A stretch of 64,000 bases of DNA from Globomyces pollinis-pini (Eukaryota; Chytridiomycota; Chytridiomycetes; Rhizophydiales; Globomycetaceae): contig MU621134.1 of assembly GCA_025399215.1 (NCBI GenBank), forward strand, positions 1 through 64,000, written 5' to 3'. The stretch's first letter is position 1, and every line of letters starts with the position of its first letter. The notes below the pieces were generated by a model, which saw only the letters and a program-made list of their open reading frames with translations, did not search any database and was not told where the DNA came from. Position numbers and translations under genes: made by a program. This document shows positions 7,315 through 63,893 of the stretch, one piece after another.

Positions 7315-7719
7315 TTACTTTCTAGCTGATTGAATTTTTTGATGTAACTTTTTCTTTAATTCTTTACGTTCTTTTTCTAAAATTCCTTTCACATTTCCCC
7401 CTGGAATTTTCAAATTCTTATCCTTCATCGATTGTAATAATAACGAATCTTTCTTGCTTTCAATTCGAGTCTTTTTCTTAATCTTATCACTACAATCTAT
7501 CGAATGAACTTCTGGTAACCGATGTTGAGAACAATATTTTAATAAACAGATCGAACATTCCATAGACATGATCGTTAATTTTTCTTTACATCCTTTATAA
7601 TAACATGTGGTTTTAGCTTTGATTTCAATTGTAGGACTAGGATAAATTATTATGCATTACTCTTCAATGGCTGCTACTAAAGAATCTATATCTTCATCAT
7701 GTTTTATAGTCTTTTTCAT
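7315..7719 (-). CDS. small AN1-type zinc finger protein
   Basis: Two exons, 7719-7661 and 7636-7315, joined across a 24-nt intron (7637-7660) give 126 aa in one frame. Residues ~27-60 carry the AN1 pattern: TTCYYKGCKEKLT, then CSICLLKYCSQHRLPEVHSIDC, with the expected Cys and His spacing. The rest is a basic, Lys-rich tail (KKKLHQKIQSARK). AN1 fingers bind zinc and are found in proteins linked to ubiquitin and proteasome stress responses; this short single-finger form could be a Cuz1/ZFAND-like factor, but I cannot place it in a subfamily. Confidence 0.75.
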
Positions 7720-9884
7720 TTGGATAAAAACATTTCAAGAACAATACAATTATATTCAAAATCCTATTTTTTATAATAGATCCAATAAAATGTCATGATC
7801 ATTGACCAATTAAATTCCAACAATCTAAAATACTATTCAATAAATTGCTAGATCAAGGTATATTCCATTAACCACTGCAAATTGAACCAAACTGATCACG
7901 ACTCTTCAACATTGTGGAATCTTGCAAACTATCCATAATGATTTTGCTTCATTGAAAGGCATTCTTACTTTCAGAAAACAACATTCTCATACTCGGATGT
8001 AAGAATGGTGATTGAATAGTCCTCTGTATGAATTCAGTGGCCGAATTCATTTTCGGTTAATGGTTAATAGGAACCTTACAAAATTAAATCCAATAAACGA
8101 TCTAAATTTTGAAAAGAATCCCATTGTAACAATCCGATTGAGGTCGTCGAAAATATGATGTATGTCCCAACATGATTTTTAAATGAACAAGAAAGGTGTA
8201 AAAAGTTGGTGAATACATTTAGATACCAATTCAAGTCCAAAAAGAAAAGTTGATCAATAGAATTGGTATCCAATTCAATTACATAATATCATCATATCTA
8301 CATAGCCAATTTTGTTGCCAATCGCTTTTCCTTCACACATTTTGATGAAAGTGCTGTCATCAAAATTTTTAGTAAAGGTCCAATACATATCAAATATCTA
8401 TAAAAGGTACATCATAAGCATTTCCAATAGACAGAACCCCATTCACAAACAAACATCCGCATCTGTCGATTTTAAAACCACCATCTTTGTCCTATTAATA
8501 TCATAAACGATACATCTAAATCAAATTAGTAATAACACAAGCTGTACAAATCGTTCCGTATCCATATAGTAGTATATACATCTTGCAGGATTATCTTGCG
8601 GTTACAGATTGTACACAGAAGACAAAAAAAGCTGAAAGTTCAGTTACACGCAAACCCACCATCTTTCCTGTATAACCAAGCAATCCCATCAGCCATAACC
8701 AACCAAACAAAAATAATAATGGAAATATCCAACATCGGTTCAGACTTGTCATCAACAACAGTATACCTACCACATCCGTGAAAGGGTACTACACTGGCGG
8801 CTAAAAATGGAAGCGTCAATAGCGAATGTGCTAGGAAACCAACTACGGTTATCACTGGTGATCATGGGAGAGTTAAAACTGAAACGGTAGTATTTGGAGT
8901 GAAACCTAGCGATAAAAACACAACAGGAAAGTTTCAAGAAACATCTATAATTTAACCGGTGAAACGTAAGGCCTGACCGCGATTACCTATTCCAACTTGT
9001 CCAGTATCACAGTGCAGTACCAGTACACCTAGTATTTTGTGGTGGTCTCTGTTTATTTCGGGATGCATGTGAGTATATTGATAGAGAAGTTTGGTTTGGT
9101 GAAGTAGTGTTGAAATTGTTTGTTGAATGGTCCTTCTTAGATTGAATCAATATCCAGATATAGAATAAATTTCAACCAAAACTAAAGTATGCGATGTACG
9201 TCCATTTTAAAAGACCATTTCATTTGTATTTGAGAGTTAAAAATGCAATTTAACGGCACGAATGTGTAGAATGAAGTATTTTATGATACAATGACAATCT
9301 GTTTCATCAATACCATTCTTGAGAAGATCAATCAAGAACCATTCTCTTCTTGAACAATGGCCCTGGAAACAAAATACCAAATCCATTCCAGATTAGATAC
9401 AATATAAATTCGTTTCTCCAATATGCTTGATACACCATCACCAGAATTTACAACAATATCTTCAATAGTATTTGACTGTAACTATTAGTATTAGATCGTT
9501 TATGTGTGGCTACTAATAGAGAAGGACTCATTTTTGATTACCAAGTCCTGAAAAATGTGCTTGTTGAATACCTTGAAGGTTTGAGAACACAGTTAAGAGC
9601 AATCAACTTCCTGACAGATCCAATCGATTCCCTATGATTCAAAACCCCAGAGATTGAATACGGTTACACTAAAACCAATATGTTTTTAGGGATTTGATGG
9701 AGAACGTAAGTGAATAGCTGATAAATAATCACATTGAAGATTTTCGCGTTCATGTAATCCAATGACTGTTGTGCACAATGGAAATTCGCACCAACGATGT
9801 TTGAGATGTATAAAACAGGTTTGTATGGTTCAGTTCATTGATAATTTCGATCAATCCATTGGTTGACGTTCTCTGGACAAACAG

Positions 9885-10122
9885 ATTAACGAATTCGTTT
9901 TTGTGCACTACCTAAAATTAATCAACGATTTTGTCCTTGTTCACTGAATACCTGAATTCAATCAACGAAATATTTCATGTTCGCTGAGTGACCTAAATTC
10001 TATCAACGAATTTGTTCATGTTCGCTGAATAAACGAAATTCTATCAACGGATTGTTTTCGTTCGTTGTAGAGATTGGTTCTTGTTCATGACATCCATCAA
10101 CGAGACGTTTTCGTTTAATGGT
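9885..10122. repeat. degenerate ~40-bp tandem array (six units)
   Basis: Units begin with ATCAACGA or ATTAACGA at 9885, 9921, 9961, 10002, 10043 and 10096, giving unit lengths of 36, 40, 41, 41 and 53. Each carries a conserved head (ATCAACGAA), a TTTGTTCATGTTCGCTGA-like middle and an AATT(C/A) end. The last two units have diverged. The array lies in the gene-free interval about 1.4 kb upstream of the homeobox start. Confidence 0.85.
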
Positions 10123-10220
10123 AATAAACAAAGAAGCCGTCCTAGTATTCTTTAATGGATGATGTTCATAAGAGTTTGATTGTCAGCAAGACCGATAGTA
10201 TGTTATCAGGAGTTGGTTTC

Positions 10221-10262
10221 ATTGATGGTCACTGACATAGGATTGATGGTCACTGACATAGG
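10221..10262. repeat. perfect 21-bp tandem duplication
   Basis: ATTGATGGTCACTGACATAGG occurs twice head-to-tail at 10221-10241 and 10242-10262. Confidence 0.9.
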
Positions 10263-10448
10263 ATTTGTGCAAGTCGGTTATATCGGTTAAAAGTTATTGT
10301 TGACAATTGATGTCGGTTAATTTGTAAGTAGTATACTAATGATCTATAAGATACACAAGATTGATAACTTTAGACATGAATCTAGTGAAACAAAGAAGAA
10401 ATAAAATTATATTAAAGACAGCATGGAGGATTGAATAGAAAAAAAAAG

Positions 10449-10512
10449 CGAATTAAAAAAAAACAAGTTTGGCCTAGACAGGCAGTGTAACCAGTCCGTT
10501 TTTTTTAATTCG
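10449..10512. repeat. inverted repeat, 14-bp perfect stem with 36-nt loop
   Basis: The left arm CGAATTAAAAAAAA (10449-10462) is exactly complementary to the right arm TTTTTTTTAATTCG (10499-10512). The loop is richer in G and C than the flanks (GGCCTAGACAGGCAGTG...). It could be a hairpin in a transcript, a short foldback element, or chance pairing of A and T tracts; the shared CGAATT ends make pure chance less likely. Confidence 0.65.
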
Positions 10513-10807
10513 TAAAATCTGTTTTAGGAGGATGTGAACATTTGAAAAACAGATGGTGACACAGATGGTTGTTTAGTTATTATGGAGGTTGTTTGGTTTG
10601 ATGGAAATTCAGTCAAATTTATAAACTCAAAGTTTATAGGCTCTAGTGTTTTGGGCAGTGTGTTACTAATGGGCAGTGTGATGGACCGGAGTGGATAAAT
10701 TCTAGATATCATCTTGAAAAATATAATTTAATATATACTAAAGACAAAATTATATATAAATTAATCATGTTGGTAAAGAGGACCGTTAGTGAAAGGTTGG
10801 ACAGAGT

Positions 10808-10867
10808 CCAATACAGTTGAAAAGAGTACAATATAGTTGAAAAGAGTTCAATACAGTTGATAAACAA
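10808..10867. repeat. 20-bp period tandem repeat, three units
   Basis: Three successive copies of a CCAATACAGTTGAAAAGAGT-like unit with a few substitutions; the third copy loses the end. It lies in the gene-free interval upstream of the homeobox gene. Confidence 0.8.
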
Positions 10868-11534
10868 GATAAGACACTTATTAAGTTTAAATGATCATAT
10901 AAATGTAAGCGGATAAAGTAGCAAGTATGGGTTGTCTCTGGCATTCTTTGTTGAAACAGGATGTAACAGTCGACCAAAACAAGATGACATCATGGCTCTA
11001 AAGGAATGGACAAAAGAATGACCTACAAGATGGTGATGATAGAATAATATGACAAGATCGATGGTAATAGTCTGTTGAAACGGAAAGAGGACACGTTAAA
11101 GTGGCACCAAGAAATTGGGAGTTAGAGTCATCAACAACACATTTATATATAATAAGATCGTAAATAGAACTATACAATAGTAAGATGGTATGGATAAGAT
11201 GTAAGTATAACAAAGTGATTGAATACTAAAAAAGATGAAAAGTTTCAAATAAGGCGGTTACAAAGAGTCCAATTGAATTTTGGTCAGTTGGTAATTTACC
11301 CTTTTAACCATACAACCAGAATTCCACTAGTTTATAATAAAATACACTCATTAGTAAATAACTTTTATAAACAAAGATATGAATTACGTTACTTTGAATT
11401 ATGTCCATCTGTTTCAACTTCACTACTCCTTTTCAAGCCTTTTTTCTTGGTCACAAATCACATTCAAGTCAACTCATCACACGGTCCCTGGTGGCTTTAT
11501 AAACACTCAGTTTTCTCTCTTGTTTTATCGTATC

Positions 11535-13000
11535 ATGAATATACCTTCTAAAAAAGGTCGTTATTCCCCTGAAGCTACTGCTACATTACTCAAATTATAT
11601 CTACAAGGTGTCGATAGACCAAATCGTGCTCAAAGAGAACAACTAGGTTTAGAATTAAATAAAACTCCTAGGTAATAATAACATTGTAATTCTAATCATG
11701 GTAGGCAAATTCAGATCTGGTTCCAAAATAAAAGAATTAAACATAAAAGGAATTCTTCCTCTATTCCTCATATCATCACGAATATTCACTCAACTGATTC
11801 AAATCACTCTCCTTCTGTTTCTCCCTCCGATAACTTGTCCTCATTGGATGTATCAAATGTAAACTCTCCTGTTACCAATACCCCTTTAATGGATTCTGCC
11901 CTTCTCCCTTCAAACTCTACTATCAGTCCTGTAAAATCAGAATTCAACTACCCAATTATACTTGATACGAATCTAAAATCTCCTACTGAATCAAATATCC
12001 CTATAAACCATTCATTGTCCCACATGTCTCCTTCCAGTACTGTTTCCGTCTTGAACTCCCCAAAACTCAATTCCAATTTATCATCTCCAAAGGTTAAATC
12101 AAACTTGAGTTCACCTTCTAAACTATCTCAAAATACTTTGAACTCTCCATCAATGTCTCAAGAGATACAATCTCAAACTACTTTAAACAACTCTCAACCT
12201 AACCTCTCCACTCATTATATAAGTAATTCTCAGCAACCTCAAGTGGCATCCCTCTCGATTCCCCTTCGGCCAAACACTGCTTCGCATTTTCCTGTTTCTC
12301 TATCTCCTGTCGAAAACATCCCATCACCTTTAAGTATGCTACTTTACCCTCTAATATTTCTCTTAGATACTACTCGCCCCCAAAACTTTCAATTTGTCCC
12401 TTCATCCATTCAAGTTCATACTTTGCCTCCAAACACACAACTTTTTCATGGTCATTCTCAAACTCAACAAAATCCAAACATCGTCCAACAATCCATTACA
12501 CTCAATCAAAATACCACGTTCAACAATATTACACAATCTTTCAACATGAATCTCAATCAGAACACCAACAACTTTAGAAACCCAATGACACCTCCTCTTA
12601 ATTACAATGTCACCCCTATTCAAAGTTTCTTTGTTCCATCAGGTACATATTCCAATCATTCTAACTTGTAGTCAACAATTCTTTTAATTTCGGCGCACCT
12701 TCCCCTGAACCAAGTCCTGACATTACCAGAATTTTTAATTCCACCTCACAAACTCAATCCAACTCAAGATATTCGATACCCAATCGACCGGACCTTCAAC
12801 CTCAAAAATATTTGTATAGGCCAACACATAATCTACAACTTTCCAATATACAAGGTAGTTCCAAAACCACCCCATTTCCGTCCCCAATGTCCAACACTAT
12901 ATCGCCCAATAATTCAGCTAATAATTCGCCGTCTTTGCCAACTCAGCAAACCAATCCACTTCTCAATCAGTGGGATATGAATTGGGGACACTCTCAATAG
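11535..13000 (+). CDS. homeodomain transcription factor
   Basis: Four exons (11535-11671, 11705-12333, 12367-12642, 12672-13000) join to 456 aa. The homeodomain is at the very N-terminus (about residues 5-61): a KKGRYSPEATATLLKLY start, then helix 3 QIQIWFQNKRIKHKR. That helix is created only by removing the 33-nt intron 11672-11704. The remaining ~390 residues are disordered and rich in Ser, Asn, Pro, Thr and Gln, with repeated NSP/LSSP stretches and many potential SP phosphosites. It is probably a nuclear DNA-binding regulator; the target is unknown. The long upstream intergenic region fits a regulated gene. The second intron is 33 nt without a stop, so it could be retained in frame. Confidence 0.88.
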
Positions 13001-15336: not shown

Positions 15337-15952
<616 letters not shown>

Positions 15953-16123: not shown

Positions 16124-17592
16124 ATGACAAATTTGACCATCAAACAACAGAAAGAACTGCATGTAACAGGTCACTCAGGATCAAGCATTTGGGAAGTTCA
16201 TCGGATATTACTAGTAGTCTTACTCTCCTATTGGATAAACAATTTACTTCTAACCAAACAATTACAATTATCTTGGATTCTTCGATTCACACTAGAATTC
16301 CTCACTTTAGTATTTCCATTTCTAGTATCAATCACATTTACCCAATTCACGAAATATATCTTGATTCTACAGATTTCAATCATTATCATGTCAACTGTTT
16401 CCAAATCTTCACATCCTCGTTTAAAATCTAGTCATCGTCATTTACCATACATAGTAGCTTTTAGAGGTTATTTACAATTAATCACTATTGCAGCCATTTT
16501 AGCAGTTGATTTTCATGTATTTCCACGTCGATTTGCAAAAACAGAAACTTTTGGAACTTCATTGGTAATGATATTTATATTGATGGTAGATGGATGTTGG
16601 AGTTGGTATGTTTATTTTCTCTTCTGGGTTGGTTTCTGGATTAAGATTATCAAATGATAAGGTGAATTGGGATTATTTGATGAAAACGTTACGAATTATA
16701 TTTCCTTGTATCTTGCTGGGTTTTGGAAGAATGATATCAGTCAAAGTGTTAGATTATCAAGAGCATGTTAGTGAATATGGAGTTCATTGGAATTTTTTTG
16801 TAACATTGGCCATTATACCTATATTGGTATTGATTCAAAAATTCATATTGCCTTTAAATTCATTTTTAATTGCTTTACTCTCATCTGCTAGTAAATTACC
16901 TTTTTTTGTTAACGAATCAGTTTATCAATACTGTTTGAAGTTTAAGGGATTGGAAGATTATATTCTAAATACTCCAAGAATTGACTTTTTGTCACAGAAT
17001 AGAGAAGGTTTATTTAGCTTGATTGGTATCATTTTAGAAAGTCACTAATTGATAGGATTTTATTCAATTTACTTGATTGCATTTGATTTAGGTTCAAAGT
17101 TAATGACCCATCATCAAAAAAAGACAATGTTGGAATTACGTAATAATAGAATCATCACTTTACTCAGATATACCATTTTCTTATCTGCAATGTATTTCTG
17201 TCTAACATTTGCATTACAACTTGAAGTGTCAAGACGAATGGTAATTTATAATTTGATAAACAATTCATTAGGCTAACTTTCCATTTGTCATTTGGGTATC
17301 TGCTTTATGTTCCACCATGCTTCTTTCCCTCTTTTTAATTGATGATTGTTTTAGTGTTCCAAATGTACCCATCATCTTAACCAGTATAAATCAAAATCAA
17401 CTTGCTATATTTCTATTTGCAAATATCTTGACAGGTTTGATTAATTTAACAGTAAATACTTTGAATTTCAATCATTTACAAGCTTTTGCGATTTTGATTG
17501 TCTATTTGTATGTAGTTGGATTGGTTGCAGCTTTATTACATCGGTGGAATATTACCCTCAAATTTAACAATGATATCAATGCAACTGGTTAA
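16124..17592 (+). CDS. GWT1: GPI-anchor biosynthesis inositol acyltransferase Gwt1/PIG-W
   Basis: A multi-pass membrane protein. The N-terminus QKELHVTGHSGSSIWEV matches the Gwt1 start. Conserved cores follow: AILAVDFHVFPRRFAKTETF, the next exon with DVGVGMFIFSSGLVSG, then NREGLFSLIG, and ANFPFVIWVSA reached by splicing out the intron ending before GCTAAC near 17272. The enzyme acylates inositol of GlcN-PI in the ER so that GPI anchors can be made. This is consistent with the GPI-type glyoxal oxidase elsewhere in the window. About four short introns are inferred. It starts 172 bp from the divergent phosphatase start. Confidence 0.92.
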
Positions 17593-20950: not shown

Positions 20951-22899
20951 ATGGTGACATCATTCACATTTAACTATTTAATATTAATGAAATTAGAGTT
21001 ATTGGGAAGAAGCTATTCTGGTGTAAAGAATCAGAATGAGACAATTCAAACATCCACGAATGAGAATACAAATGAGTTGGAGTCTACGCGAAACCAATTG
21101 AATACCCTTTTAACTCAGGCATTAGAGACTGGTACTTTACAGCCTTATTCGGAAGCTTTATTGTTGGAACAATATAGAGATGCTTTATTAGAACAAAAAA
21201 TGGAATTGACGAAAAATGTTGAACAAGATTTGCAGAGACAGACAAGGCAATTGGCTCCAAGAACTTATGGATGGACAGGTTGCTCAGAAATGTTTGGATT
21301 TGATTCAAAAATGCAAAAACCAATGACAGATTTGAATGATATGCAAAGACTATGGAAACAATTGAGAAATTTAGAAGCACATACGTATCAATTGGAAGAT
21401 AGCAATATATGTAATGAATTCTTTGAAGAATTGAAAGATTTGATGGTTGAAGAGGATCTTAAACCACTTGATCCTGAGGTGATTAAAACTCACTATCCTT
21501 GGCTTGCTCATCAACCTAAAGCAAAGAAAGCAAATCTGTTTAATCATTATGTAACTAAAATCATTAACAAATTGTTCTAGTTACTAAACAAGCAAAAGAA
21601 AAAACCAGTCTTTAGAATTCCGAGAGGTAAAACTTGCTTATTATCACTGCTTTTAATGATATCTTCGTGTTTTTTTAGATCACTAAGTAGTAGATGAAAA
21701 TAAAAAGACCATCTCAAAGCAGAGGTTGGAAAAGGATTTACAAGAGAAAGAAAAAGAAATTAGAGAGTGTTTGAACACAAAATTTCATGCTACTCCAATC
21801 CCAGCATCCTCCATTATACCAAAGTAACTATTCCCAAATAGTCATTAATATATAGGTATGATGCAATAATCGGCAATCAACGCACTAAAGCATCTGACAT
21901 TCGACAAAAAGCAATCGCCAATAAAATTCTAAAGGAATCTAAATCCCAAAAGACAACTACAAACTTGAAAAATAAAGAGAACAATTCAGAAGAAGGAAAT
22001 ATAAACCCTATCTTGTTGGAGGCATTAGAACAAACAAATAAAAAGTCAAAAATAGCACAAGGATTCAAACGAATTGAAAAATTACTAGAAACAGAGGATC
22101 AAAGGAGAAAGAAATTGTTAGGTATCATAAAAATTTGCATAAATGTACATAGAATCTCAGAAGCAATCGGGTTTAACTGAACATCATACGTTTAAACCAA
22201 AGATATCCAAAAGTCCTCCAAATTTTCAAAGACTGCATGAGAAGATGACTAGGAATATTGACGAAAAAAAGAGTAAATGGTCCCCAACAATGTAGTTGAT
22301 GTTGACACTCAATTTAGTTTCCAACCATTCGAAGGATTGACAAAAAATCATACTGCCCAAAGTCAAAAGAGTGTTCAAAAAGAAGCAGTAGAGATAACAA
22401 GGCAGGTGAAGTCTACCAAAGCAAACTATGAGATTCATAAACAAGCCATAGAACCAAAGTCTACATTATCTTTTAAACTGAAAGTGGAACATCGTAAAAT
22501 TAAACAGGAAGCGGATGAATTGATTCATCAAATTTGTGAAGAAGAGCAAAGAATAGCAGAAGAAAGGCGCAAGGTTCACTTTATAATCTCTGATTTTAAC
22601 AGGAACTATCCAAAAAGATCCGATTAAAAATCGATAGTAATTCAAGCATTTTGAATAGAATTAACAGAGAAAAGAAATTAAAAAGAAATTCCGAAGGTAT
22701 TTACATTAAATACGTTCTTATAGTAGAAAATATACGAATGAAAAAGGAGTATGAACAAAAGATACAGGAAATGAACGATAGATTATCAACAAGAATGTGT
22801 CTATTTGAAGAGTGTCGTATTAACTCCATTAAAAATAAGACAAAACATGATGTAGACAATATATTGCTGGAATCAGGCTTAAAGCCTGAGCAGTACTGA
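20951..22899 (+). CDS. FAM161 family centrosomal/ciliary protein
   Basis: Exon 1 (20951-21550, 200 codons) is a helical N-terminal region without a recognised domain (PYSEALLLEQYRDALLEQK). It splices in frame over a 30-nt intron (21551-21580) to LLNKQKKKPVFRIPR. Later exons carry the FAM161 hallmarks: KFHATPIPASSIIPKYDAI (compare KFRANPVPASVFLPLY in human FAM161A) and a C-terminal coiled coil ending RMCLFEECRINSIKNKTKH...SGLKPEQY. One intron (22273-22295) is only 23 nt. FAM161A binds microtubules at the connecting cilium and basal body in animals. The exact start is uncertain: upstream frame opens on TTG, and the first residues after 20951 are not conserved. Confidence 0.8.
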
Positions 22900-23040: not shown

Positions 23041-24631
<1,591 letters not shown>

Positions 24632-24786: not shown

Positions 24787-25760
24787 ATGTTAAAAACAAT
24801 AAGAAGATTCACCACTTTGATTGAGACAAAGGCATCAAAACCAATTCCAAAATTACCTGGGTATCTGCAAGAATCAGTCATGCCAACTGGAACAAATGCT
24901 ATCTTTAGTAACCAAACTCCAATCGTTCATATCGAAAAAACAGCTTATAATGAACTATCAAAGTTTGATGATTTGCTTAGTTTGTAGCTTTTGGTTTTTA
25001 ATACTAGATATTCGATGGAAGAATCCCACGGTTCAGAGTTGGATTAATTCTTTTCAATCTGGAAAATCAATTGGATTGGTTGAATTAGATAAGGAAGTTT
25101 TTGGAACTTCAATTAGAGAAGATATAATGGCCAGATGTTTGAAATATGAACAATCTTGGGCTGAAGCTGGAACTGAATCAACAAAGACTCTTGGACAAGT
25201 TCGTGGATCATGTAAAAAATTATAATTGTAACATCATTAGCACAGAAACCATTCCCACAAAAAGGACGAGGTAAAGCTCGTGTTGGTACTCTCCGTGCAC
25301 CACACTTCAAAGGAGGTAGGCAGATTTTAGACTCATTCAAAAAGGATATAATTCACATGGTCCAAGACCACATCGAAAAATGACTGACATACAGCGAAAT
25401 GTGTATGAATCAGGTATAAGATCTGCGTTATCTACAAAATTCCAACAAAATCAGTTGATTTTGGTTGATAGACTGTTAATGACCGAAGTATCAAAACCTA
25501 CTCTGAAAAAATATTTGAAAGGTCTTGGATTAGAAGGAAAGAAGGTTTATCTTATGTATGGTGCACATGAAGCCAGTTTGGCATTAGTTCGTACAGCAGA
25601 TACATTTGTAAAAAGGATTCCTAGTGTTCGGATCCCAGCAGGAGAGAAGCCAGTACTGATTACCCCTGCAAGACATGTGGCAGTCAAAAGTTTACTAGAG
25701 TATGATTATTTGATAGTGGATAAAGAAGCAGTGGAAGTATTGGAAGAAATGTACCGATAA
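24787..25760 (+). CDS. mitochondrial ribosomal protein uL4m
   Basis: The ATG at 24787 gives MLKTIRRFTTLIETK, a basic, serine/threonine-bearing presequence suited to mitochondrial import. Splicing joins exons encoding TVQSWINSFQSGKSIGLVELDKEVF and IREDIMARCLKYEQSW, then the uL4 core QKPFPQKGRGKARVGTLRAPHFKGG, YNSHGPRPHRKM, and SALSTKFQQNQLILVD. The order matches bacterial-type L4 (RNA-binding loop with the GRGKAR patch), which lines the exit tunnel. Intron lengths are about 28-29 nt. Confidence 0.9.
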
Positions 25761-25937: not shown

Positions 25938-26131
25938 ATGATGAAATTTTTAGTAGGAGTGGTAGTTGGTATCTACATTGCACAAGAATATAAGGATAAG
26001 GTACGTATTTGAACTTGATTTAACTCTAGGTTCCTAACCTCAAAAACAAGGTGACGGAAGTTTTTTCTATTCTTAAAGCAGCAGAGAAAGAAATTAAATC
26101 TGAATCCAAAGCTGATAAAAAAGAAGAATAA
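25938..26131 (+). CDS. 54-aa single-pass membrane protein, unrecognised
   Basis: Two exons (25938-26000, 26030-26131) separated by a 29-nt intron give 54 aa. Residues 3-14 (KFLVGVVVGIYI) form a hydrophobic stretch directly after the start, followed by a charged amphipathic helix (EVFSILKAAEKEIKSESKADKKEE). The layout resembles small mitochondrial or ER membrane proteins. It lies 178 bp downstream of uL4m on the same strand. The clean GT-AG intron restoring frame supports a real gene. Confidence 0.55.
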
Positions 26132-26254: not shown

Positions 26255-28081
26255 TTATTCCTTTAAGAATTTTTGTACAAGTGGTACCCATTTAATCATA
26301 CCACAATCATCAAAACATTTCTAAACTGAGTGAGATATATACATTACCATGACTTGATTAGGAGTCTTGCACATGAATAAAAGGTCGCTACGATAAGTAA
26401 GTAATGCTGCTGCAGTCACTGACAATAATCCTAAACAATCATACCCTATTATTCTATCCCACATCAATAAAACTTGTTCGCAATCTAAAATGCCAACAAA
26501 TGCATATAGAATCCATTTAAAAGCTATTTCTAATGGTTGAATTTCAATGGTGTGAGATAAATGAAAATATAACTCTGAATTGGTTTCTTTTACAAGATTC
26601 TCAAACTGTATACATAGTTGGAGAATACCACCATTCTTATTACAAGGTGTGTGTAATTTATAGAAATATCTGATGTTAATTTGGGTATTTACCTGACATA
26701 AAGTTCTCGGAATAATATATAAGCTTCTCCTGGATCTTCGTGTAAGTAGCATACTGGCATCGCATATAAAGAAATGCCCCAAAATGGATATATACCATTA
26801 TAACCTTGTTCAGAGTATAAATCTATAATCAATTGTTTACTTTAAAAAAATACCTTTTGCTAATAATTCATGATTCATTTTCATCAAAGCTTTTGTAATC
26901 CAATTATCTCGACTCCAGTACATCATGATCTTCTTTATAAGATCCTCAAAGATAAAATATCCATCATCATTCTGAGCATGTTTTGAATCAATTTGAATCA
27001 TTCGATCAATAATCAAATCCATTTTCTTTATCATTTTTGATAATTTAGATATAGTTTTTTGAACCTATAATCAATTAGTATTGTATTCATGATGAATTAC
27101 ATAGGATCGATAACAACCAATGACTTCAGATTGAAGTAAAAGATTCCAAATTTTGGGTCTTAAATGATCAGATATCCCTCTTTTAGCATATTGACCAAGT
27201 TTTTGTAAATCTTGAGTTCCCAATAAATTCTCACCCAAATCTGAATGAAATTTGGAATACTCTTCCGTGGTATCTTCAATGTTATGTAATCCCAAATGTT
27301 GGACTTGATATGAACATAATTCTTTATATTTCTTGCGTAAATCTAAAAGTGTATCTGTTTTAATGGGTATAGAGATTGCAGACCAAAGACTTGGTCCTAA
27401 ATCATTCTGTTTACAACGAATAGCTCTTAAAGCATCAAATAAATCCATATCATCATATAAACATGTTTTTAAATAATCATTATCCCAAAGTTTGGATGGA
27501 AATATATCACACATTATTGACATTGTTGTATTATCATTTTCATTTGATTCGTCAGTTAATTCAACAAGTTTCGATATTTCATTTGGAGAACGCTTTAAAT
27601 TAGAATCACGAAAATAGTATTACGATTCTAAAAATGGGAATGTTCAGTTCCAAAGCCATTCTTTCGATACGTTTACTAATCAAATTAAACATGTTACGAT
27701 TGATTGTATATAATGATTGTTCAAATTCTCGTTGACTAATGATTAATATGTTTATAGATTACTTGAATTGATCGAAAGTGGACCCAGAGATGAGAACGTT
27801 GGACTTTTTCAACAACTCTGTTTGATTCTTCAAAGGATTCTTGATGATAGTTTTGATAGTTACATCTTGAATAATCATTTCATTCATCTGTTTTTCAAAA
27901 TCTCGCTTATCTGTTGTATTTAAAATAGTTTCCTTTAATATTTTTAAGATTCACATATTTGAATTACTATCATTTTGGATCTGTTTATCCAGTAAGGACT
28001 GGTGTATTTTAATTCTATTCCCCAACTGTTGTTGCTCATTCGTAAGAGCAAGAAATACGCGCGTTTTTCTCTATCATTCAT
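26255..28081 (-). CDS. TBC domain Rab-GAP, TBC1D19 type
   Basis: N-terminal exons give RIERMALELNIPIF and KRSPNEISKLVEL, matching the TBC1D19 region ahead of its TBC domain. Then come LDALRAIRCKQNDLG-type sequence, KLGQYAKRGISDHLRPKIWNLLL (TBC motif start), YFIFEDLIKKIMMYWSRD, LFENLV/ELYFHLSHTIEIQPLEIAFKWILYAFVG, and VLLMWDRIIGYDCLGLLSVTAAALLTYR. The last exon ends KWVPLVQKFLKE at 26255. The IxxDxxR arginine finger is not obvious, so GAP activity is uncertain, as in other TBC1D19 proteins. The 5' end (28081) is inferred and could lie at another ATG. Confidence 0.82.
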
Positions 28082-28232: not shown

Positions 28233-29047
28233 ATGTCACTCTTTAACTTACTTGATATACAGGTACAACTGATATCCATTTAAACCTTAGATCTTGAATA
28301 ATCCTGCTACATTTTTTGATTCTTTTCAATTTGAAATTACCTTTGAAATTTTAGCTGAACTTCAACAAGGTATTATTCATTTGAACAATATATTAATGAT
28401 TTTTTAAATTAGATTTGGAATTTAAGATAGTTTATGTTGGATGTGCTGAAGGTCCAGAACATGATCAAGTATTGGAATCTGTAATGGTTGGACCTGTCCC
28501 TGTAGGACTCTCAAAATTTGTACTTGAAGTAATGATAGAATATTTTAGATTTATAATTTACAATAGGCCCCTGCTCCTAAAATTGATTTGATACCTCAAT
28601 CTGATCTCGTTGGTTTAACTGTAAGTAAATGTAAAATTCTTAAAATACCTAGGTGATGTTACTTAGTTGCTCATATCGAGAACGTGAGTTTATTCGAGTT
28701 GGGTACTATGTAAATAACGATTATTCTGATGAACAATTACGAGAAAATCCTCCTGAACAACCTGATTTACAAAAGATTCAAAGACATATATTGGCTGAAA
28801 AGCCAAGAGTTACTCGTTTTCCAATACCTTGGTATGTTAAGAGTCCATTCGTTAATACTTTAGGGATAATGACGAGGCTATTCCATTACCAACGGCTGCT
28901 GAACAGGCAATGGCAGAAGAGGAAGCCAACCTTCCTGATGAACCTGAAGTGGAGGATGAAGCTGAAATGGATGATGAAGCTGACATGGAAGACAGTAAAA
29001 TGGAAATGGATACTGACTTGAATGAGGCGATGACAATTGAAGTTTAA
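28233..29047 (+). CDS. ASF1: histone chaperone Asf1
   Basis: Six exons (28233-28262, 28291-28369, 28413-28528, 28567-28620, 28653-28831, 28864-29047) join to 213 aa. The immunoglobulin-like core is conserved: [99 protein letters not shown]. The C-terminal ~45 residues are a strongly acidic tail ([19 protein letters not shown]), as in yeast Asf1. It binds H3-H4 and works in nucleosome assembly. The five introns are 28-43 nt. Confidence 0.95.
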
Positions 29048-29202: not shown

Positions 29203-29688
29203 TTATTCTTCAGCAACTTCTTCATCTTCAGCCTTATGATATTAGAATTACAACTGAGCTTTACCTTAGTAGCACGGGTGTAGATAGTTTGAGACCCATG
29301 GAGAAGGACTGGACGGATGATTCCTTGAGCTACAAGTTCTTTGATGGCAGCACGAGCAAGTGATCCGTTGATTCGAAGACGATCAACCAAGATTGAAGGA
29401 GACACAAGTTTGTAAGTTGGGACTTCCTTGAAAAGTCTTTCGTAGGTGGTTTTGTCAAAGACAACAGCGTTGTTAGCTTTGTCCTTTACTCTTCCTTTAG
29501 ACCATTTCTTTTTTGGTGCGGCTCCCTACAACAGTAAGTCAATGTTCAATTGAGAAGTGGAAAATGTATGATTACATCTATCCATCCATCCATCCAACAT
29601 TAGTTCATGTCTTTGGTATCACTAACTTTGATAGTTGATGATGAGGAAGTATTGATTGTTGATTGTTGATAATTTGTTGACTTACCAT
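29203..29688 (-). CDS. RPS25: cytosolic ribosomal protein eS25
   Basis: Three exons join to 97 aa. The first contains only the ATG (29688-29686), followed by a 160-nt intron (29526-29685). Exon 2 (29525-29265) begins [21 protein letters not shown] and contains [26 protein letters not shown] and [10 protein letters not shown] 32-nt intron precedes the last exon (AEDEEVAEE). All landmarks of eS25 are present; the basic N-terminal extension is shorter than in animals. A long first intron after the start codon is typical of ribosomal protein genes and here is several times longer than other introns in the window. Confidence 0.95.
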
Positions 29689-30444: not shown

Positions 30445-32335
30445 ATGAAGAGTATTTATTTGCTTAGTATTAGGCAAGTGCTAGCTATAGGACTTGGATA
30501 TTGGGATGATGCTGGAAGCTCAGGTGTTACTTGCATTCATACTGCATTACTCCCAAATAGTCAATTGCTATGTTTTGAAAGACCACATTTAGGTCCTATT
30601 GTGAATGGAGAATCTATTGTATTTCATATCATCTTATTTGTAGTATCCTATTAACCCTCTTACAAATGGTGTGCTGTCAACGCAGATTGACCTTCTTGCA
30701 AAAGTCAATTCAGATGGTAAATGGACATCAAAGTTCACTCCCATTCCGGTACTCTCTAATCCATTCTGTGCAGGACATGCTCAAATGGCAAATGGGTCAA
30801 TTCTCGTTGCTGGTGGTGACAATCAAACCATGCCGGATGTTGGGTCGGGTTTGATCTATAATGGTAGAAAAGGAGTGCGTATTTTTAATCCATGTCCAAT
30901 CGGTAAGGGTAGTGATTGTATAGGCAGTTGGGTCGATGTGAAATCAATGAGTTCAGAACGTTGGTATCCAACCGTTGTGACATTGGCTGACGGAACGTAA
31001 GTTACTGCAAACTTCTAACCACTTAGTAACATTATTATTGGTGGTCAAACGAAAAACATTGATTTTGATCATCTTGCCCCTACTGATGATAACCCAACGT
31101 ATGAATATTATCCACCAAAATCAGGTACATGGCCAAAGCGGTTGGATTTACTATCTTGGGCATTTCCACACAACTTATATGCACCTAGTTTCCAATTACC
31201 TACTGGAGGCGTTTTTATTCACGCTTCAAATCGTAGTATTATTTTGGACACAAAGACTGAAAAGATTTCGTTTTTACCAGATATGCCTGAACTAGAAGAC
31301 CATTCCCCTTGGATCTATCCACATACTCCGTTTGTCATACCGCTTCCAATGACAAAAAAGAATAAGTTTAAATTCGAACTTTTGTTTTGTGGTGGCAGTA
31401 AGCTAAAGTCTAACGGATCATCAAGCGTTTGTATGACTTTTGAACCTGGCTCGTCCAATCCTACTTGGAAATTCACGGACTCTTTGTTGTATAGCAGAGT
31501 TATGCCTGATGCGGTACTTCTTCCAGGTTTGTGACATATTTTAATTGACTTTATAGATGGTACTATATTTGCAACAAATGGTGCTGGCTTTGGACAAGCA
31601 GGAGGAAACCAAGGACAAGTTCAATACGCTTCCGATCCTGTCTTTGAATCTGAAATTTATAACCCTGAAGCTGCTACTGGTTCGAAATGGAAAGCAGTCG
31701 CATCTGCAAAACAAATGAGACTTTATCACTCTGGTGCTGTTTTGGTCGAAACTGGACATGTAGTTACAATGGGATCCGAAATGGATAATTATAATGACTA
31801 CTGGCCAAAAATTAAACCAAATTGCTTTCCAGAAAAAGACGCAGCATGTACGCAACCATTCAACACAAAACTAGAAAGATTTACTCCACCATATTTGGAA
31901 TCCGTTGAAGCTAAAGATCGACCTGTCATCACTAATGCACCATTGACTACAACCCATGGTTCATTAATTGCTATAGATGTTGATTCAACTGCTAAAGCCG
32001 AGAGAGTCACATTTACCAGAATATGCACTGTAACACACAGTACCAGCACAGACCCTCGTTTTGTTGAACTTATTGTGGAATATCAAACTGATAAGACACT
32101 TTATATTCGAATTCCTGACAATCCAGCATTGGCTATCCCAGGAAACTGGTTCGTCTGGGTTCTGAACAAGGACGGCATCCCTTCAGTAGCTAAAACAATT
32201 GCCCTTCAACTTGGCGATAAGAAAGAGGTTTCTGTACCAGCAGGAGCTACTAAAAAGTCTGATGGATTCGAATCTCTTCCACAAATTGGTTGGGTTACTG
32301 CTCTATTGGCTTTCGCTGTTCAATTTGTTTGGTAG
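30445..32335 (+). CDS. glyoxal oxidase / galactose oxidase-like copper-radical oxidase, GPI-type
   Basis: About 560 aa over four or more exons. The Kelch-type propeller begins at SSGVTCIHTALLPNSQLL. Copper-radical residues are visible: Cys in NPFCAGHAQMANGSILVAGGD (partner of the Tyr-Cys crosslink), Tyr in SSERWYPTVVTLADG, Tyr-His in MRLYHSGAVLVETG, and His in TTTHGSLIAID at the start of the DUF1929 domain. All four expected ligand positions are present, so it should oxidise small aldehydes or alcohols and make H2O2. The C-terminus is hydrophobic (GWVTALLAFAVQFVW), fitting a GPI-anchor signal. The N-terminal signal peptide from 30445 is weak, so the first exon may be mis-set. Confidence 0.88.
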
Positions 32336-34624: not shown

Positions 34625-37066
34625 TTAATGCCCTTTCTTCTTCTGTTTGGTAATGTGGGCACGAAGAACCTTTTGCTTCTCCATCAATGATCTACTCTTT
34701 TTGCTTTTCACCGAACGTTTGTGGACCAACATGGTCATTGGCTTATTTTTCTTTGCTTTCTCCTGTGGATGTTAAAAACTAAAACGATTACTCTGTTTGT
34801 GGTTGAAGATCGTTCATCTTTACCCCTCTTTGATCCATATTCACGTCCGATTCTTCCTTCCTAAATATCAAACATGATTGAATAATATACCTTAATAGAA
34901 TTCATTCGCGCCTCATAATCATCTTTCTTTCTGGTGAATGCCATGATTTTGTTTGCATCAACAACGTTACTATAATTAATACCACATCGAATTCTTACGG
35001 GTCGTCGTCTGAATCATCCGCTTGTAAAGTATTTCTCCTTCTTCTAACTCCAGCAAGATCATTTATCTCTCGTTGCTCTCTTCTTTCACGAATGATTGCA
35101 AAATCTTCATCAGTGAAAATTTTTTGTGATGCAAGTCCAAGTTTGATCTTCTTTGGTGATGGTTCCTGCGGTTCAACAACTTCTTCCGATTGGCTATCTT
35201 CTGAGCCGTCTTCGTTTAATATAGCATCAACTTCGTTGTCATCTACTTCAACTGCATTGTCCCAGTCCAACTCAGATTCCACATCATCATCCTCTTCTTC
35301 ATCTTCCCATTCATCTCCATTTTCGGCACCATCGATAGGAACAAGTTCTGGAGCTGTATCAGAGTCCTCCTCTTCTTCCACCATTTTACGCTTTGATGAT
35401 TTGGACTTTCCAATGAATTTATCATCAGCGTCTTCATCAAATTCACTTTCAAGGTCACTGTTTTCTTCTAATAGCTACACAATCAACTATAAAACACTTA
35501 CCTCCGCATCTGCTACATCTGAATAAACTGCAACATGTCCGTATTCTTTTACGGTGTGATTTTTAAGGTTAATAGATGCGGCTTTGCCCTAAATATCAGA
35601 AGGAAAACATTACTCTATCTTTTTTCTTCAACATTTGAGGATTGAAGTCACGATATAGCCCTAATAAAGCTCTTGCTGCATTCATTGGTCCTTTATCTCT
35701 ATGATTCTTGTAATCTTCCATCAAGCTCTTTAACAATTCTTCTGGCATAGCAAGTGGACATCTAGTGCAAACTTCTCGAAGTGCATTTAGCCCTGCTGCA
35801 ATAACTTCGGATGCACAATTACTCCAAACAAAGTTGTCAGCAACTGCTCTCACAGTATTTTCCAATGCGTCTGGAGGGATCAAGTCATGGGAAGCTTGCG
35901 CTAAATAGGCTAAAATTTGTGTTACGTCCTTCTGATGTGGTTTAATGTAGGAAATTATGAAGTCGTAAAATCCAAGTATCAACAGCTTGTGAACACCAAT
36001 GAGACGAGATATTAAGTTCATCATTTCAAGTCTTAATTCGAAATTAAAAGTGTTTTTTGATGTAACTTGTTTCAATTTTGAGAATAAACTTTCGGTAAAG
36101 CCTTGAGGATCATTTAATAAATGAAGAGCTGAGAAGTTGAAGTGCTCCACTCTATTTTTATTCCTTTCTCTCTAAAACGATTAAAACGATTAATTTTACT
36201 CTTCTAACTGCTGCTTGAGCTTTGTCCATTTGAGCAGCTCTAGATTTTCTTTTCTTGTTATGGGAATTCGCTTGTCTCATTCTTAACAAGTCTGGTAAAT
36301 CATCCATGTCCTCATCTTCATCACCTTTATTGTCGTTGGTTCCCAAGAAAAAGTGAAGTGCAGGAGCAACTAACTTTGGACTTTGTGAAAGACATGCTTC
36401 TGACACCACATTTACTGTCTTTGCATCATTCCAGATATTCTTTTGATATAATTCAATCATAACTTCTAAAGACTTTTTAGCAGCCATCTACTGTTAGCAA
36501 TGAATTATGTACTTCATTGGAGTCGTTAAGCATTTTGTACATAAAATTCTGGAGAGTTTTGTTCAATTTGTTGTTTTTAGACTTGGCATTGGAATTCTTG
36601 ATATCACTGACAATATGTGAATGTAATAATTGTCTCAATGTTTTATCTTTGCACCTGAACAGGGTAAAGAACAAAGAGAGTAAACTGGCTTGGGACAATA
36701 AATCACGATTCCTCATTAAGATTAATGACTGGACCATAGTTTTTCGTAAATCAGGAGACATAGTTTGATAATGGTTGTTCAACATATCATGTACATGTTG
36801 AGGAAAATCAGCACATTCCTTTGGATAGCAAGTAGCAACCTAGTCATATCAAAAACCATACGAATTACCGCTGCAATAAACATTATCTGCTCACCAAAGT
36901 GAGTAGAATCCATGTTTGGCTTTAAGTTAAATATTGCCATTGCTGACTCAAAATGCCGATACTGCGTCATAAATTCCTCATGATATGATGAATTATCTCG
37001 TTTGATTAGATTTTGTAATTGTGCCAAGTTTGATGCGAGGAGCTCACTTCGATTTCGTTTCCCCAT
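34625..37066 (-). CDS. SDA1: ribosome biogenesis protein SDA1
   Basis: The N-terminus [20 protein letters not shown] with the following [21 protein letters not shown] matches SDA1. Conserved blocks follow: [85 protein letters not shown], then [14 protein letters not shown]. An acidic linker (35,200-35,400) and a basic C-terminus ([35 protein letters not shown]) complete the family layout. Sda1 is needed for 60S subunit maturation and export. About seven short introns. Its start is 29 bp from the assembly gap. Confidence 0.94.
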
Positions 37067-45351: not shown

Positions 45352-45885
45352 ATGATACGATGTCTATTTTTCACCAAACACCTTCAAATCATTGCATGCT
45401 GCATTCATCAATTCAACCTACTGGAAGCTGATGGGGTGGATTTGAAGCTATTGGCCTCTTGTCTTTCTAGTATAATATCCTTGGATTTAGTGCATGGTCA
45501 TCTAACTTTTTCCGACTCTTATTGTCTCTCATTTAGTATCTTATACATCTAATTGATAGATCGTAAAAATATTAACTTGGCGAATCAATACTCAATCAAA
45601 AGACGTTCGGATCAAGCTGTATTTCTACCAACTTATAAATATAATATATACGTTGTACAGAACTGTAGCAAGTCAACTATATCATGCACAGACAGTTTAA
45701 ATGAACAAGGGCGTAATGTGGTTGATTGGAGTCAATTAGATCCTGAATTGCTCGCCCCATTGCTACCAGATGAAATAGATGCTTTAAAGGACCAATGGAA
45801 AAACCTAACGAAAATGTAAATGATCATCTATTACTGATTTACTCTCTTTAGGCCCAAATCAATCACCATTTATCGCAAGCAATAA
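45352..45885 (+). CDS. unrecognised 157-aa protein
   Basis: Three exons (45352-45535, 45560-45815, 45852-45885) join to 157 aa with introns of 24 and 36 nt; the first intron contains the only in-frame stop. The N-terminus is hydrophobic with several Cys (RCLFFTKHLQIIACCIHQF). The C-terminus is acidic and Leu-rich (DWSQLDPELLAPLLPDEIDAL), ending TIYRKQ. I recognise no domain. The start is 57 bp from the divergent CCDC162-like start. It might join the following gene if an additional splice exists, but a stop intervenes in the read I favour. Confidence 0.45.
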
Positions 45886-47106: not shown

Positions 47107-47169
47107 AATATATTATAATACCGGTAGGTTTATTAAAACATCACGTTTTAAATTTCATAAATCACGTCT

Positions 47170-56270: not shown

Positions 56271-56382
56271 CTTCCATACCTTATAAATATAGTATTTGCG
56301 TTAATAAAGTAAGAATGTTGTATTAATTTGCATTTAATTATATATTAAGGATTCTATACAGTGAATCGATTTTATTTCTTGT

Positions 56383-59731: not shown

Positions 59732-59829
59732 TAGTAAAAATATTTTTAAAGTATAATTTTTTTCATTTGAATAATTGTATAATATGCTATAGTTTTATAA
59801 TAATCCAGAAACCAAAAGGAAAGAATTCG

Positions 59830-60050: not shown

Positions 60051-60052
60051 GA

Positions 60053-60256: not shown

Positions 60257-60473
60257 AAATACCATAAATTCCATTAATTGTTAATATACACGTACTTTTA
60301 AAGTACATTTGACCTCACTGACAATTTCTTCACTTACACTTGATGGTTCCATTGGACACTTTTCAAAATTTTAGACCAGAAAATACGAATTCTAAAAAAT
60401 CATTCTATTCATTAGGAATACCATTAAATAAACACCATTCATAAACAGTTTTGATGATGTAAAAATTTATCTA

Positions 60474-61040: not shown

Positions 61041-61111
61041 ACTAAAAGCTTGAATCAGTTAATTCTATCAACAACGTAAATAATTCGATTTGATAATTTT
61101 TATTCACGTAT

Positions 61112-62367: not shown

Positions 62368-62579
62368 TTGAAATTGAATGAAGCATTAATCGTTCGTTTC
62401 ATATAGTTTTGTTTTTCGTGGATTCATTCAACACCTCCATCCCAATCCTTTGCATTGAAAAAGTTCAAAAAATTATAGCTGATTCACTTAATAATAAACA
62501 CAAAGACTTGGTATGATAAAGTACTCGGTAAAGATAAAATCAGATGTCAAAACGCAAATCATCAATAATAATTTCAAGT

Positions 62580-63893
62580 TTATTTGATTGGAGCACCAAC
62601 AACAGTCTTCACTACACATACTCCTTTTGATGTCTTGAGATGACACATTTTTTTAGATTCATCTGGTACAATAAATCCTGCTTTCTTATTATCATCTGTG
62701 AAAAGACAAGGTTGAATAGTCTCCCACACTTTTTGCTTGGATTTCAATTGAGCATCAGGTTTTCCATCTAATAATTAAACTTTTTAAATTATATATACCT
62801 TGATAACCTTCGAAAAACGCGATATCACCAGGTTTAGAACCCTTTGGAGCTTGTAAGAATTCTACTGTATTTCCATCTTGAGATGTTGCACATAGAACCA
62901 TAGCTTGTGATTCTATTCCTCGCATCTTTGCTGGCTTTAAATTACATAGAAGCATAACTAGGTGACCCTGCAAGTCTTCTGGTGCCATATACTTGACAAG
63001 ACCACTGACCACTGTACGAGGATTTTCTTCTCCCAAATCAACAGTTTCTACGTACAATGATTCAGCATCAGGATGATTTTCAACCGTCAAAATCTTCCCA
63101 ACTCTAATGTCCAATCGAGATGGATTTGGAAGGTTACTATCTAAAATATTATTTATAATCAAAACTTACCAACTGCAGGTTTTGAATCACCTTTAGGAGC
63201 TTTAACTTTTTCACCTTTCTTCTCCTTTCCTTCACCCTTTCCTTTCGCAGTTTTCTTATCTTCATTTTTACCCTTAGAATCTTTATCAGCAGTTGGTTTT
63301 GCAACTTTTGCAACTGGAACAGTTGGTACAAATGGAACGGTTAAATCAAAAGGAGTCATTGTTAATCCTGCAGAAGGTGCCTTTTCATTAACCAAATGTT
63401 GAATCAAATCGAAATATCTGACAACGTTTGGGTAGGTAGTTCGATCGGCTGGCATGAAAGGTACCTATACAGTAAACCTTACAAGTTTTGATTACATTAT
63501 ATAAAGTAGAATAAAATGCAATATCAGCTAAAGTGAAAGAATTTGTAGCCAAGAACACTTTTGATTGAATTGATGTGTTGAATTTCTAATGGATCAGATG
63601 AATAGTATATTACTTCCATTGCTGAATTTCGATCAGATTGAAAGGCATGAATCCATACTTTCTCAGCTTCCAAACTCCAATGATAGACTGAAGCTTTTTC
63701 ATCTTCAGTTGAACCTAATAAAGTTTTGAAAGGAGAATCTTTTAATAAATGTTGAGAGATTGAGATAGGACCGACAAGACCCTAAGATAAATTACAAGGT
63801 TGGAAATACATCTAATGAAGGGAATTTCTTTCCTTTGGTTCCATATCCAACAATAGCTTTAACTATATCTACGACAATATCGGATTTGCTCAT
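62580..63893 (-). CDS. ARC1: aminoacyl-tRNA synthetase cofactor Arc1/AIMP1
   Basis: The ATG at 63893 starts an N-terminal GST-like domain ([38 protein letters not shown]). A Lys-rich linker ([18 protein letters not shown]) follows, then the EMAPII/tRBD domain: [58 protein letters not shown], ending [20 protein letters not shown]. It binds tRNA and brings it to methionyl- and glutamyl-tRNA synthetases. The C-terminal stop is at 62580. Introns are short (for example the 28-nt one joining FPSLD to GLVGP). Confidence 0.9.

Follow-up and report, generated by a model that had tools for sequence, protein, structure and literature searches.

To our knowledge, the genomes with ultrashort introns described so far are those of ciliates, the reduced nuclei of algae and rhizarian parasites. 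Passages of the respective reports give intron lengths of 20-33 nt for Paramecium and 21-29 nt for Nyctotherus (PMC5014332, PMC2633312), of 15-16 nt for Stentor coeruleus, which uses the standard code and possesses both U2AF1 and U2AF2 (PMC9505925), of 16-17 nt for mikrocytids (PMC10245619) and of 18-20 nt for nucleomorphs (PMC5014332). Among fungi, excerpts describe Cryptococcus neoformans as intron-rich, with a higher share of introns below 60 nt than the other fungi in that comparison (PMC11913375) and a mean intron length of 56 or 63 nt (PMC11913375; PMC8476143); introns under 40 nt are described as poorly spliced in this species. Malassezia, likewise a fungus with compact genes, is credited with "very short" introns in a passage that states no length (PMC7426719). 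A fungus or chytrid with ultrashort introns did not occur among the literature matches listed, in a search that covered few subscription papers.

Judged from sequence, the introns of the chytrid Globomyces (Rhizophydiales) are very probably U2-type spliceosomal introns which have contracted throughout the genome almost to the physical minimum and would be spliced from the RNA. They begin with GT and end with AG, their exact removal restores conserved proteins (Prp8, ASF1 and others), and the genome encodes a spliceosome. As in Paramecium and Nyctotherus, according to the parts of the reports cited above, they form a narrow genome-wide class in the 20s; unlike in these ciliates, the host is a fungus, the median length is 28 nt, a clear YTNAY motif is present, and a few introns of 80-160 nt occur. 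Near-minimal GT..AG introns and both U2AF subunits are similarly described in the excerpted Stentor report (PMC9505925), and tiny spliceosomal introns are the main class in mikrocytids and nucleomorphs, too, as far as the passages on them go; these are, however, reduced parasite or endosymbiont genomes, whereas that of Globomyces is a chytrid genome of 18.5 Mb. In comparison with C. neoformans, 325 of 360 introns predicted in Globomyces are shorter than 36 nt.

The window, i.e. the whole stretch of 64 kb that was analyzed, contains 20 introns within Pfam domain matches above cut-off. The introns and candidate stretches are given below, the first twelve lines being those listed by the initial annotation.

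28263..28290, plus strand: ASF1 intron 1, 28 nt (PF04729, profile 1-154 of 154, 222.8 bits; gapless against 7unk_D)
28621..28652, plus strand: ASF1 intron 4, 32 nt (hand-spliced ASF1 model; branch motif weak)
15840..15863, minus strand: SIW14-type phosphatase intron, 24 nt (within PF03162, 195.1 bits, spliced frame)
15777..15802, minus strand: SIW14-type phosphatase intron, 26 nt (within PF03162, spliced frame)
15580..15604, minus strand: SIW14-type phosphatase intron, 25 nt (within PF03162, spliced frame)
11672..11704, plus strand: homeodomain intron, 33 nt (PF00046, 49.1 bits, spanning the junction; gene-model call)
12643..12671, plus strand: intron in a low-complexity part of the same homeobox gene, 29 nt (gene model only)
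26001..26029, plus strand: intron of a DUF4535 protein of 54 aa, 29 nt (PF15054, 38.8 bits, spanning the junction)
7637..7660, minus strand: intron 5' of an AN1 zinc finger, 24 nt (gene model only; the domain begins past the junction)
22273..22295, plus strand: FAM161-like gene intron, 23 nt, weak (27.3 against a cut-off of 29.9 bits; no model call)
21551..21580, plus strand: 30-nt stretch, unsupported (no domain; not chosen by the model)
45536..45559, plus strand: 24-nt stretch, unsupported (no gene call, no domain)
28370..28412, plus strand: ASF1 intron 2, 43 nt, above the norm (hand-spliced ASF1 model)
28529..28566, plus strand: ASF1 intron 3, 38 nt (hand-spliced ASF1 model)
28832..28863, plus strand: ASF1 intron 5, 32 nt, at the extreme end of the domain (ASF1 model and gene-model call)
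26670..26692, minus strand: RabGAP-TBC intron, 23 nt (PF00566, 53.1 bits, residues 222-454, junction at 356.7)
26823..26853, minus strand: RabGAP-TBC intron, 31 nt (within the PF00566 match)
27065..27100, minus strand: RabGAP-TBC intron, 36 nt (within the PF00566 match)
16565..16589, plus strand: GWT1 intron, 25 nt (within PF06423, 376.1 bits)
17026..17055, plus strand: GWT1 intron, 30 nt (within PF06423)
17241..17271, plus strand: GWT1 intron, 31 nt (within PF06423)
24163..24189, plus strand: tubulin-tyrosine-ligase-like gene intron, 27 nt (within PF03133, 277.5 bits)
25212..25240, plus strand: ribosomal uL4-family gene intron, 29 nt (within PF00573, 141.6 bits)
25316..25344, plus strand: ribosomal uL4-family gene intron, 29 nt (within PF00573)
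30997..31026, plus strand: glyoxal-oxidase-like gene intron, 30 nt (within PF07250, 80.4 bits)
36172..36199, minus strand: SDA1 intron, 28 nt (junction shared with the Globomyces sp. JEL0801 protein)
35589..35613, minus strand: SDA1 intron, 25 nt (junction shared with the JEL0801 protein)
35475..35501, minus strand: SDA1 intron, 27 nt (junction shared with the JEL0801 protein)
34970..34998, minus strand: SDA1 intron, 29 nt (junction shared with the JEL0801 protein)
29526..29685, minus strand: likely first intron of eS25, 160 nt, a rare long one (GT..AG past the ATG, by eye; eS25 domain of 124.3 bits downstream)

All twelve stretches of the initial annotation have the GT start, the AG end and the length given there; four (7637-7660, 15580-15604, 15777-15802 and 15840-15863) lie on the minus strand. 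In seven, a Pfam match above cut-off spans the junction (ASF1, 2; Y_phosphatase2, 3; Homeodomain, 1; DUF4535, 1); the spliced ASF1 domain, modeled by hand, aligns without a gap to PDB 7unk_D. The backing is weaker for 22273-22295, where the FAM161A_B match stays below cut-off, and for 7637-7660 and 12643-12671, both called by the coding model with a domain across neither. Two stretches are unsupported: at 45536-45559 no gene was called and the adjoining fragment matched no Pfam domain, and at 21551-21580, likewise without a Pfam domain, the coding model chose a different path. Only three of the twelve were called exactly by this model. A branch sequence of the CTAAY or CTGAT kind close to the AG was initially ascribed to nearly all. 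For the branch motif, nine score at least 3 log-odds, and in eight of the nine the A lies no more than 10 bases from the 3' end; scoring yielded no good motif in 22273-22295. While this 23-nt stretch is thus weakly backed, the size of 23 nt is independently supported, at the level of the encoded protein, by a second case within the RabGAP-TBC match (26670-26692, minus strand).

Relatives provide further comparisons. Prp8 contains 15 introns, each of 27-33 nt; in an alignment with Boothiomyces all 14 junctions left by introns of 27-32 nt are without a gap on the Globomyces side, and the 33-nt intron corresponds to an 11-residue insert which is missing in five of five chytrids compared. No Globomyces Prp8 was present among the best 120 of 3017 matches listed, so that the Prp8 contig is linked to the public species through its membership of the same genome. 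At the site of a 30-nt intron, the Prp8 proteins of Boothiomyces and Entophlyctis carry inserts of 7 and 20 residues, which look like retained introns of 21 and 60 nt and may serve as a lead. SDA1 of the window differs from that of Globomyces sp. JEL0801 by one substitution in the shared part; the public protein, modeled without the first two exons, shares four of the six junctions of the present model. An alignment of 36 environmental and named SDA1 fragments gave no usable signal of intron retention in relatives. The host is a chytrid rather than Rozella or an aphelid, groups named initially for comparison, based on the SDA1 match and on Prp8, which clusters with that of Boothiomyces in a phylogeny containing no Rozella or aphelid row.

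Expectation maximization from three starts recovered a branch motif YTNAY, mostly YTRAY, the A of which has a median distance of 8 bases from the 3' end and is about the 20th base of the intron. This A is likely the branch point; in the excerpted Stentor report the branch A is base 10, followed by a 5-nt tail (PMC9505925). In its position close to the 3' end, the motif would be able to pair with the GUAGUA of U2, and the U2 snRNA carries an intact GUGUAGUAUCUGUU. The genes for SF1, U2AF65 and U2AF35, factors to which the initial annotation had pointed, were all found, along with those for Prp8, Cwc25 and Isy1. It might be asked whether a modified spliceosome with altered branching factors is required, as proposed for Stentor. 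The N-terminus of Isy1 is mildly divergent in a model assembled from hand-joined exons. Neither an Rfam search, whose own controls were also blank, nor two patterns recovered U6 snRNA from the genome, a result that does not imply its absence; SPF45 was not found either. The match to the SPF45 query is RBM39 by reading of its domains. However, U2 and Prp8 are of ordinary appearance, and Cwc25 has kept its N-terminal glycine motif MGGGDLNLKKSWHP, its first 14 residues being identical to the human ones, whereas the Stentor-type loss of this motif, described in the passages on that species (PMC9505925), is not seen. A modified spliceosome is therefore unlikely, and a largely standard one probably removes these introns.

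The length distribution was obtained with a self-trained, unsupervised gene model on 273.9 kb sampled from the 18.5 Mb genome. About nine in ten of the 360 introns predicted (325) fall between 23 and 35 nt, with a median of 28 nt for this short class; 8 have 36-45 nt, none 46-69 nt and 27 at least 70 nt. In the first run, the short class was present in all 21 loci. The initial annotation was right to read ultrashort spliceosomal introns but understated the finding by implying a short tail, since they are the normal introns of this genome. In-frame stops occur in 88 of 88 predicted introns of 3n length, the model being blind to open ones, about 23 of which are estimated to be missed, and in 116 of 202 of the other lengths. 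The 3n deficit that is reported, in the parts of the sources cited, for Paramecium and Nyctotherus has no clear counterpart here, as 3n lengths are not clearly rarer within this limit of the model. Some of the 27 long predictions are two short introns flanking a missed exon. A large second set of ordinary introns of 50-150 nt might have been missed by the methods, given likely real introns of 126 nt in U2AF65, 80 nt in U2AF35 and 160 nt in eS25 and a slight excess of GT-AG pairs at 61-80 nt (90 versus 72.2); this is quite improbable, however, as all modeled introns of Prp8 (15/15), SF1 (6/6) and RBM39 (7/7) have 25-33 nt and the range of 46-69 nt is empty.

A self-trained model may, after round 1, reinforce its own length class, and its intron count grew from an initial 84 to 246 in the course of five rounds; the short class could accordingly be an artefact of a self-learnt bias that collects GT..AG pairs of favored length. 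Several controls make this very improbable. When run with a flat prior on length and without modeling motifs, the gene finder still returned 29 GT-AG introns of 27-31 nt, compared to 0-4 for each of 14 decoy dinucleotide pairs. GT-AG pairs with open, coding-like sequence on both sides were in excess at 27-28 nt (22 observed, 2.0 expected) and 29-30 nt (14 versus 2.5). A scan of the entire 18.5 Mb by motifs alone yielded the same lengths, 46 of 77 rows (60%, versus 16% under uniform gap lengths) implying 27-31 nt, and the peak is visible in homology-checked genes. The peak at 27-31 nt thus survives both the decoy controls and the whole-genome motif scan. Below it, neither the pairs between open flanks at 10-26 nt (19 versus 26.4 expected) nor the flat-prior gene finder at 23-26 nt (4 for GT-AG, 0-11 for decoys) gave an excess; the size of 23-26 nt therefore rests on protein domains and the public protein model. 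Elimination at the DNA level, as of the TA-bounded internal eliminated sequences of ciliates, which in Paramecium are of similar size, can be dismissed almost entirely: although most predicted short introns have TA at both ends (GTA start, 305/333; TAG end, 285/333), 48 of the 333 end in CAG or AAG, a TA-to-TA cut would leave four additional bases and shift the frame where Prp8 and ASF1 need exact GT..AG removal, the spacing between the branch motif and the intron end is fixed, and the host is a chytrid.

Returning to U2-type splicing, we infer that a typical intron of 28 nt would be read from a 5' GTA through a branch A at about the 20th base and some 8 further bases to a final TAG, with U1/U6 and U2 recognizing their sites in the usual way. 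Recognition of the 3' end would probably depend mainly on SF1 and the contact of U2AF35 with the AG, because there is no space for a polypyrimidine tract. The spliceosome may need a minimum of about 16-18 nt from the 5' splice site to the branch A and a further 7 nt or more to the 3' end; if these spacings hold, they would account for the abrupt lower limit of the lengths at 24-25 nt. As a tentative extension, an ordinary fungal spliceosome, with the Cwc25 plug and both U2AF subunits, might be locked at its own floor of about 17 + 7 = 24 nt, below which Stentor (15 nt) could have gone only with altered branching factors, and the length might be held by intron-definition splicing and decay of unspliced messages, which would show as an excess of in-frame stops in 3n introns.

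The finding is also a warning for annotation: a survey of more than 3000 eukaryotic genomes left out introns below 30 bp, according to the passage available (PMC10639083), which would lose 227 of the 360 introns predicted here, and in the public SDA1 model of the species the first two exons are missing. A state known from other ultrashort-intron genomes now appears in a chytrid fungus that bears a JEL strain number, with introns among the shortest known. As transformation has been reported for Spizellomyces in the part of the publication considered (PMC7213984), a member of the same phylum as Globomyces, the minimum intron for a normal spliceosome would become testable.

GT-AG pairs of 27-30 nt occur far more often than chance predicts. 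In a 264-kb sample, consisting of the window plus 20 segments of other contigs, each of 10 kb, we counted dinucleotide pairs whose 75-nt flanks on both sides were open and coding-like, an in-frame stop being required where the length was a multiple of three (3n). GT-AG pairs of 27-28 nt were observed 22 times (2.0 expected) and those of 29-30 nt 14 times (2.5 expected), with a smaller excess at 31-33 nt (10 versus 5.4); at 10-26 nt the excess was absent (19 versus 26.4), and in the bins from 34 to 150 nt the observed/expected ratios were 0.74-1.57. Similarly, a semi-Markov gene finder with a uniform length prior and without a motif model, controlled by 14 decoy dinucleotide pairs, predicted 29 GT-AG introns of 27-31 nt versus 0-4 per decoy pair, and no excess at 23-26 nt (4 versus 0-11). 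After training on its own output until convergence, the refined finder yielded 360 predicted introns over 273.9 kb, with 325 at 23-35 nt, eight at 36-45 nt, none at 46-69 nt and 27 at 70 nt or more; each of the 21 loci in the first run held the short class. The 333 introns of 20-45 nt have a median length of 28 and a mean of 28.6 nt. A motif-only scan of the 18.5-Mb genome (strong 5' site, YTAAC and TAG, gaps free) yielded 77 rows (two with a common start), of which 46 imply 27-31 nt (60% versus 16% under uniform gaps); as the reversed pattern produced more matches (226), given without lengths, the scan serves solely as a length profile against uniform gaps.

Homology supports the same class. 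The gene model of Prp8, read at full length on another contig (C137), comprised 14 introns, of which 13 were short; the remaining one, of 115 nt, was rejected, since homology indicates a 28-nt intron starting with GTG and adjoining a missed exon piece. The spliced protein, 88% identical to that of Boothiomyces, has gaps of its own at none of the 14 junctions, and gaps common to both proteins at two of them are caused by inserts in other rows. An 11-residue insert, missing in all five chytrids compared, corresponds to a stop-free 3n intron of 33 nt; together with the 14 checked introns, all 15 Prp8 introns thus measure 27-33 nt. In the window, 20 introns sit within domain matches above cut-off, 17 of 23-33 nt and three of 36, 38 and 43 nt; such a match places both sides of the junction in one domain, while a base-exact junction needs more.

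Introns by gene
SF1: 6 of 25-31 nt, as modelled
U2AF65: 5 of 25-30 nt and 1 of 126 nt, as modelled
U2AF35: 80 and 34 nt modelled, 25 and 29 nt by eye
Cwc25: 33 and 28 nt, as modelled
RBM39: 7 of 27-29 nt, as modelled
Domain-internal, window: ASF1 5, phosphatase 3, homeodomain 1, DUF4535 1, GWT1 3, TTL 1, uL4 2, TBC 3, glyoxal oxidase 1

Two Prp8 proteins of other chytrids carry inserts of their own. That of Entophlyctis has 20 residues, the first V and the last Q, exactly where Globomyces has a 30-nt intron, and it might be conjectured that they represent a retained 60-nt GT..CAG intron; likewise, the seven residues RLSFTNC in Boothiomyces could conceivably stem from a 21-nt intron left in place, its branch sequence being TACTAAC.

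The initial annotation had proposed 12 introns of 23-33 nt in the window, each restoring a protein or frame. Lengths, GT starts and AG ends are correct in all 12, four of which lie on the minus strand. Protein restoration is borne out by a Pfam match above cut-off spanning the junction for seven: two in ASF1, whose spliced domain aligns with PDB chain 7unk_D without gaps, three in a SIW14-type phosphatase, and one each in a homeodomain and a DUF4535 protein. For the others backing is weaker or lacking: 22273-22295 lies in a sub-threshold FAM161 match (27.3 bits, Pfam cut-off 29.9), 7637-7660 and 12643-12671 are backed by the coding model alone, and 45536-45559 and 21551-21580 have no backing as introns. 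The coding model reproduced exactly just three of the 12. Further features of the window are:

97-1791 (-): 564-aa protein predicted from a gene without introns, containing a P-loop-like stretch and lacking any Pfam match at E 0.001, presumably resembling Crinkler-type proteins of chytrids; this end is GC-richer (0.398 over 1-4000)
7720-11534: about 3.8 kb without predicted gene, containing a tcaacgaa-like short unit in near-repeats at about 9900-10110 (by eye)
11535-13000 (+): homeobox gene; a long tail rich in Ser, Asn and Pro comes after it
34628-37066 (-): SDA1 gene, whose model has a wrong end according to the published Globomyces sp. JEL0801 protein
34804-34860 and 34628-34753 (-): further downstream SDA1 coding pieces missed by the model, from the same protein

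In the Prp8 tree the organism pairs with Boothiomyces (support 99/99) in a clade including Gorgonomyces, Batrachochytrium and Polyrhizophydium, all members of the Rhizophydiales. Globomyces sp. JEL0801 is placed by NCBI in the Chytridiomycota, Rhizophydiales, Globomycetaceae. Its SDA1 is 100% identical to that of the window over 74% of the query, with a single difference (E to K) in the common part, and lacks the first two exons. Four of the six window junctions (28, 25, 27 and 29 nt) recur in it; thus, some of these introns are already part of public annotation. Among the best 120 of 3017 Prp8 matches none was from Globomyces, which would fit a broken public gene model.

Whichever of three motifs it started from, expectation-maximisation arrived at a single putative branch motif, approximately [AT][TC]TNA[TC] with N preferentially A, whose probable branch A lies at position 20 counted from the 5' end (5-95%: 18-26) and at position 8 counted from the 3' end (7-12). 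Length tracks the 5' part more than the 3' part (correlation 0.82 versus 0.46); among the 333 predicted introns of 20-45 nt, 305 have GTA donors and 285 TAG acceptors. The lower length limit is abrupt (two introns of 23 nt, eight of 24 nt, 35 of 25 nt), and we infer a minimum span of about 16-18 nt up to the branch A, then 7 nt. Single long introns occur in U2AF65 (126 nt, L027:1378-1503) and U2AF35 (80 nt, L030:1426-1505), and the first intron of the ribosomal protein gene eS25 (29526-29685, -), directly after the ATG, appears to be 160 nt, well above the norm. Possibly, introns of such length are a sign of regulated genes.

In complete genes, an in-frame stop is present in each of the 88 3n introns predicted, open 3n introns being invisible to the model, compared with 116 of 202 non-3n introns. 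Within predicted exons, strong composite motif matches total 22 at the 3n lengths of 24, 27, 30 and 33 nt versus nine at eight non-3n lengths (25, 26, 28, 29, 31, 32, 34 and 35 nt), and the antisense control lacks this excess. With a sensitivity of 75%, about 23 open 3n introns would thus have been missed. The odds ratio for stops in 3n versus non-3n introns is 2.8 (p 0.0001), or 1.6 (p 0.05) if 40 were missed. Judged from sequence, the stop excess is suggestive of a Paramecium-like decay of unspliced messages.

Genomes in which ultrashort introns form the main class have been described for Paramecium, Nyctotherus, Stentor, nucleomorphs and mikrocytids (PMC5014332, PMC2633312, PMC10245619, PMC9505925). 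For fungi, an analysis of 644 genomes regards the Cryptococcus mean, 63 bp, as relatively short (PMC8476143), splicing of Cryptococcus introns below 40 nt is reported to be poor (PMC11913375), and those of Malassezia are called very short in a passage giving no figure (PMC7426719); none of the literature matches listed concerned ultrashort introns in a chytrid. SPF45 was not found in the genome search, nor was U6 snRNA in the whole genome by Rfam or by core patterns of 27 bases (3 mismatches) and 19 bases (2 mismatches), for which an assembly gap, divergence or interruption by an intron are possible reasons. The N-terminus of Isy1 is mildly divergent (query exons joined by hand). SF1, U2AF35 and U2AF65, to which the initial annotation had drawn attention, are all encoded; the six-frame search scored the pieces of U2AF65 below their family cut-off, and the identity of this protein comes from aligning its spliced form to solved U2AF65. 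U2 snRNA is ordinary, with the usual branch-pairing site. Cwc25 retains its glycine plug, in contrast to Stentor, where its loss is proposed to help avoid a clash with a 10-nt loop (PMC9505925). The retained plug and the presence of SF1, U2AF and U2 suggest that a standard spliceosome would be able to accommodate loops of about 17-20 nt.
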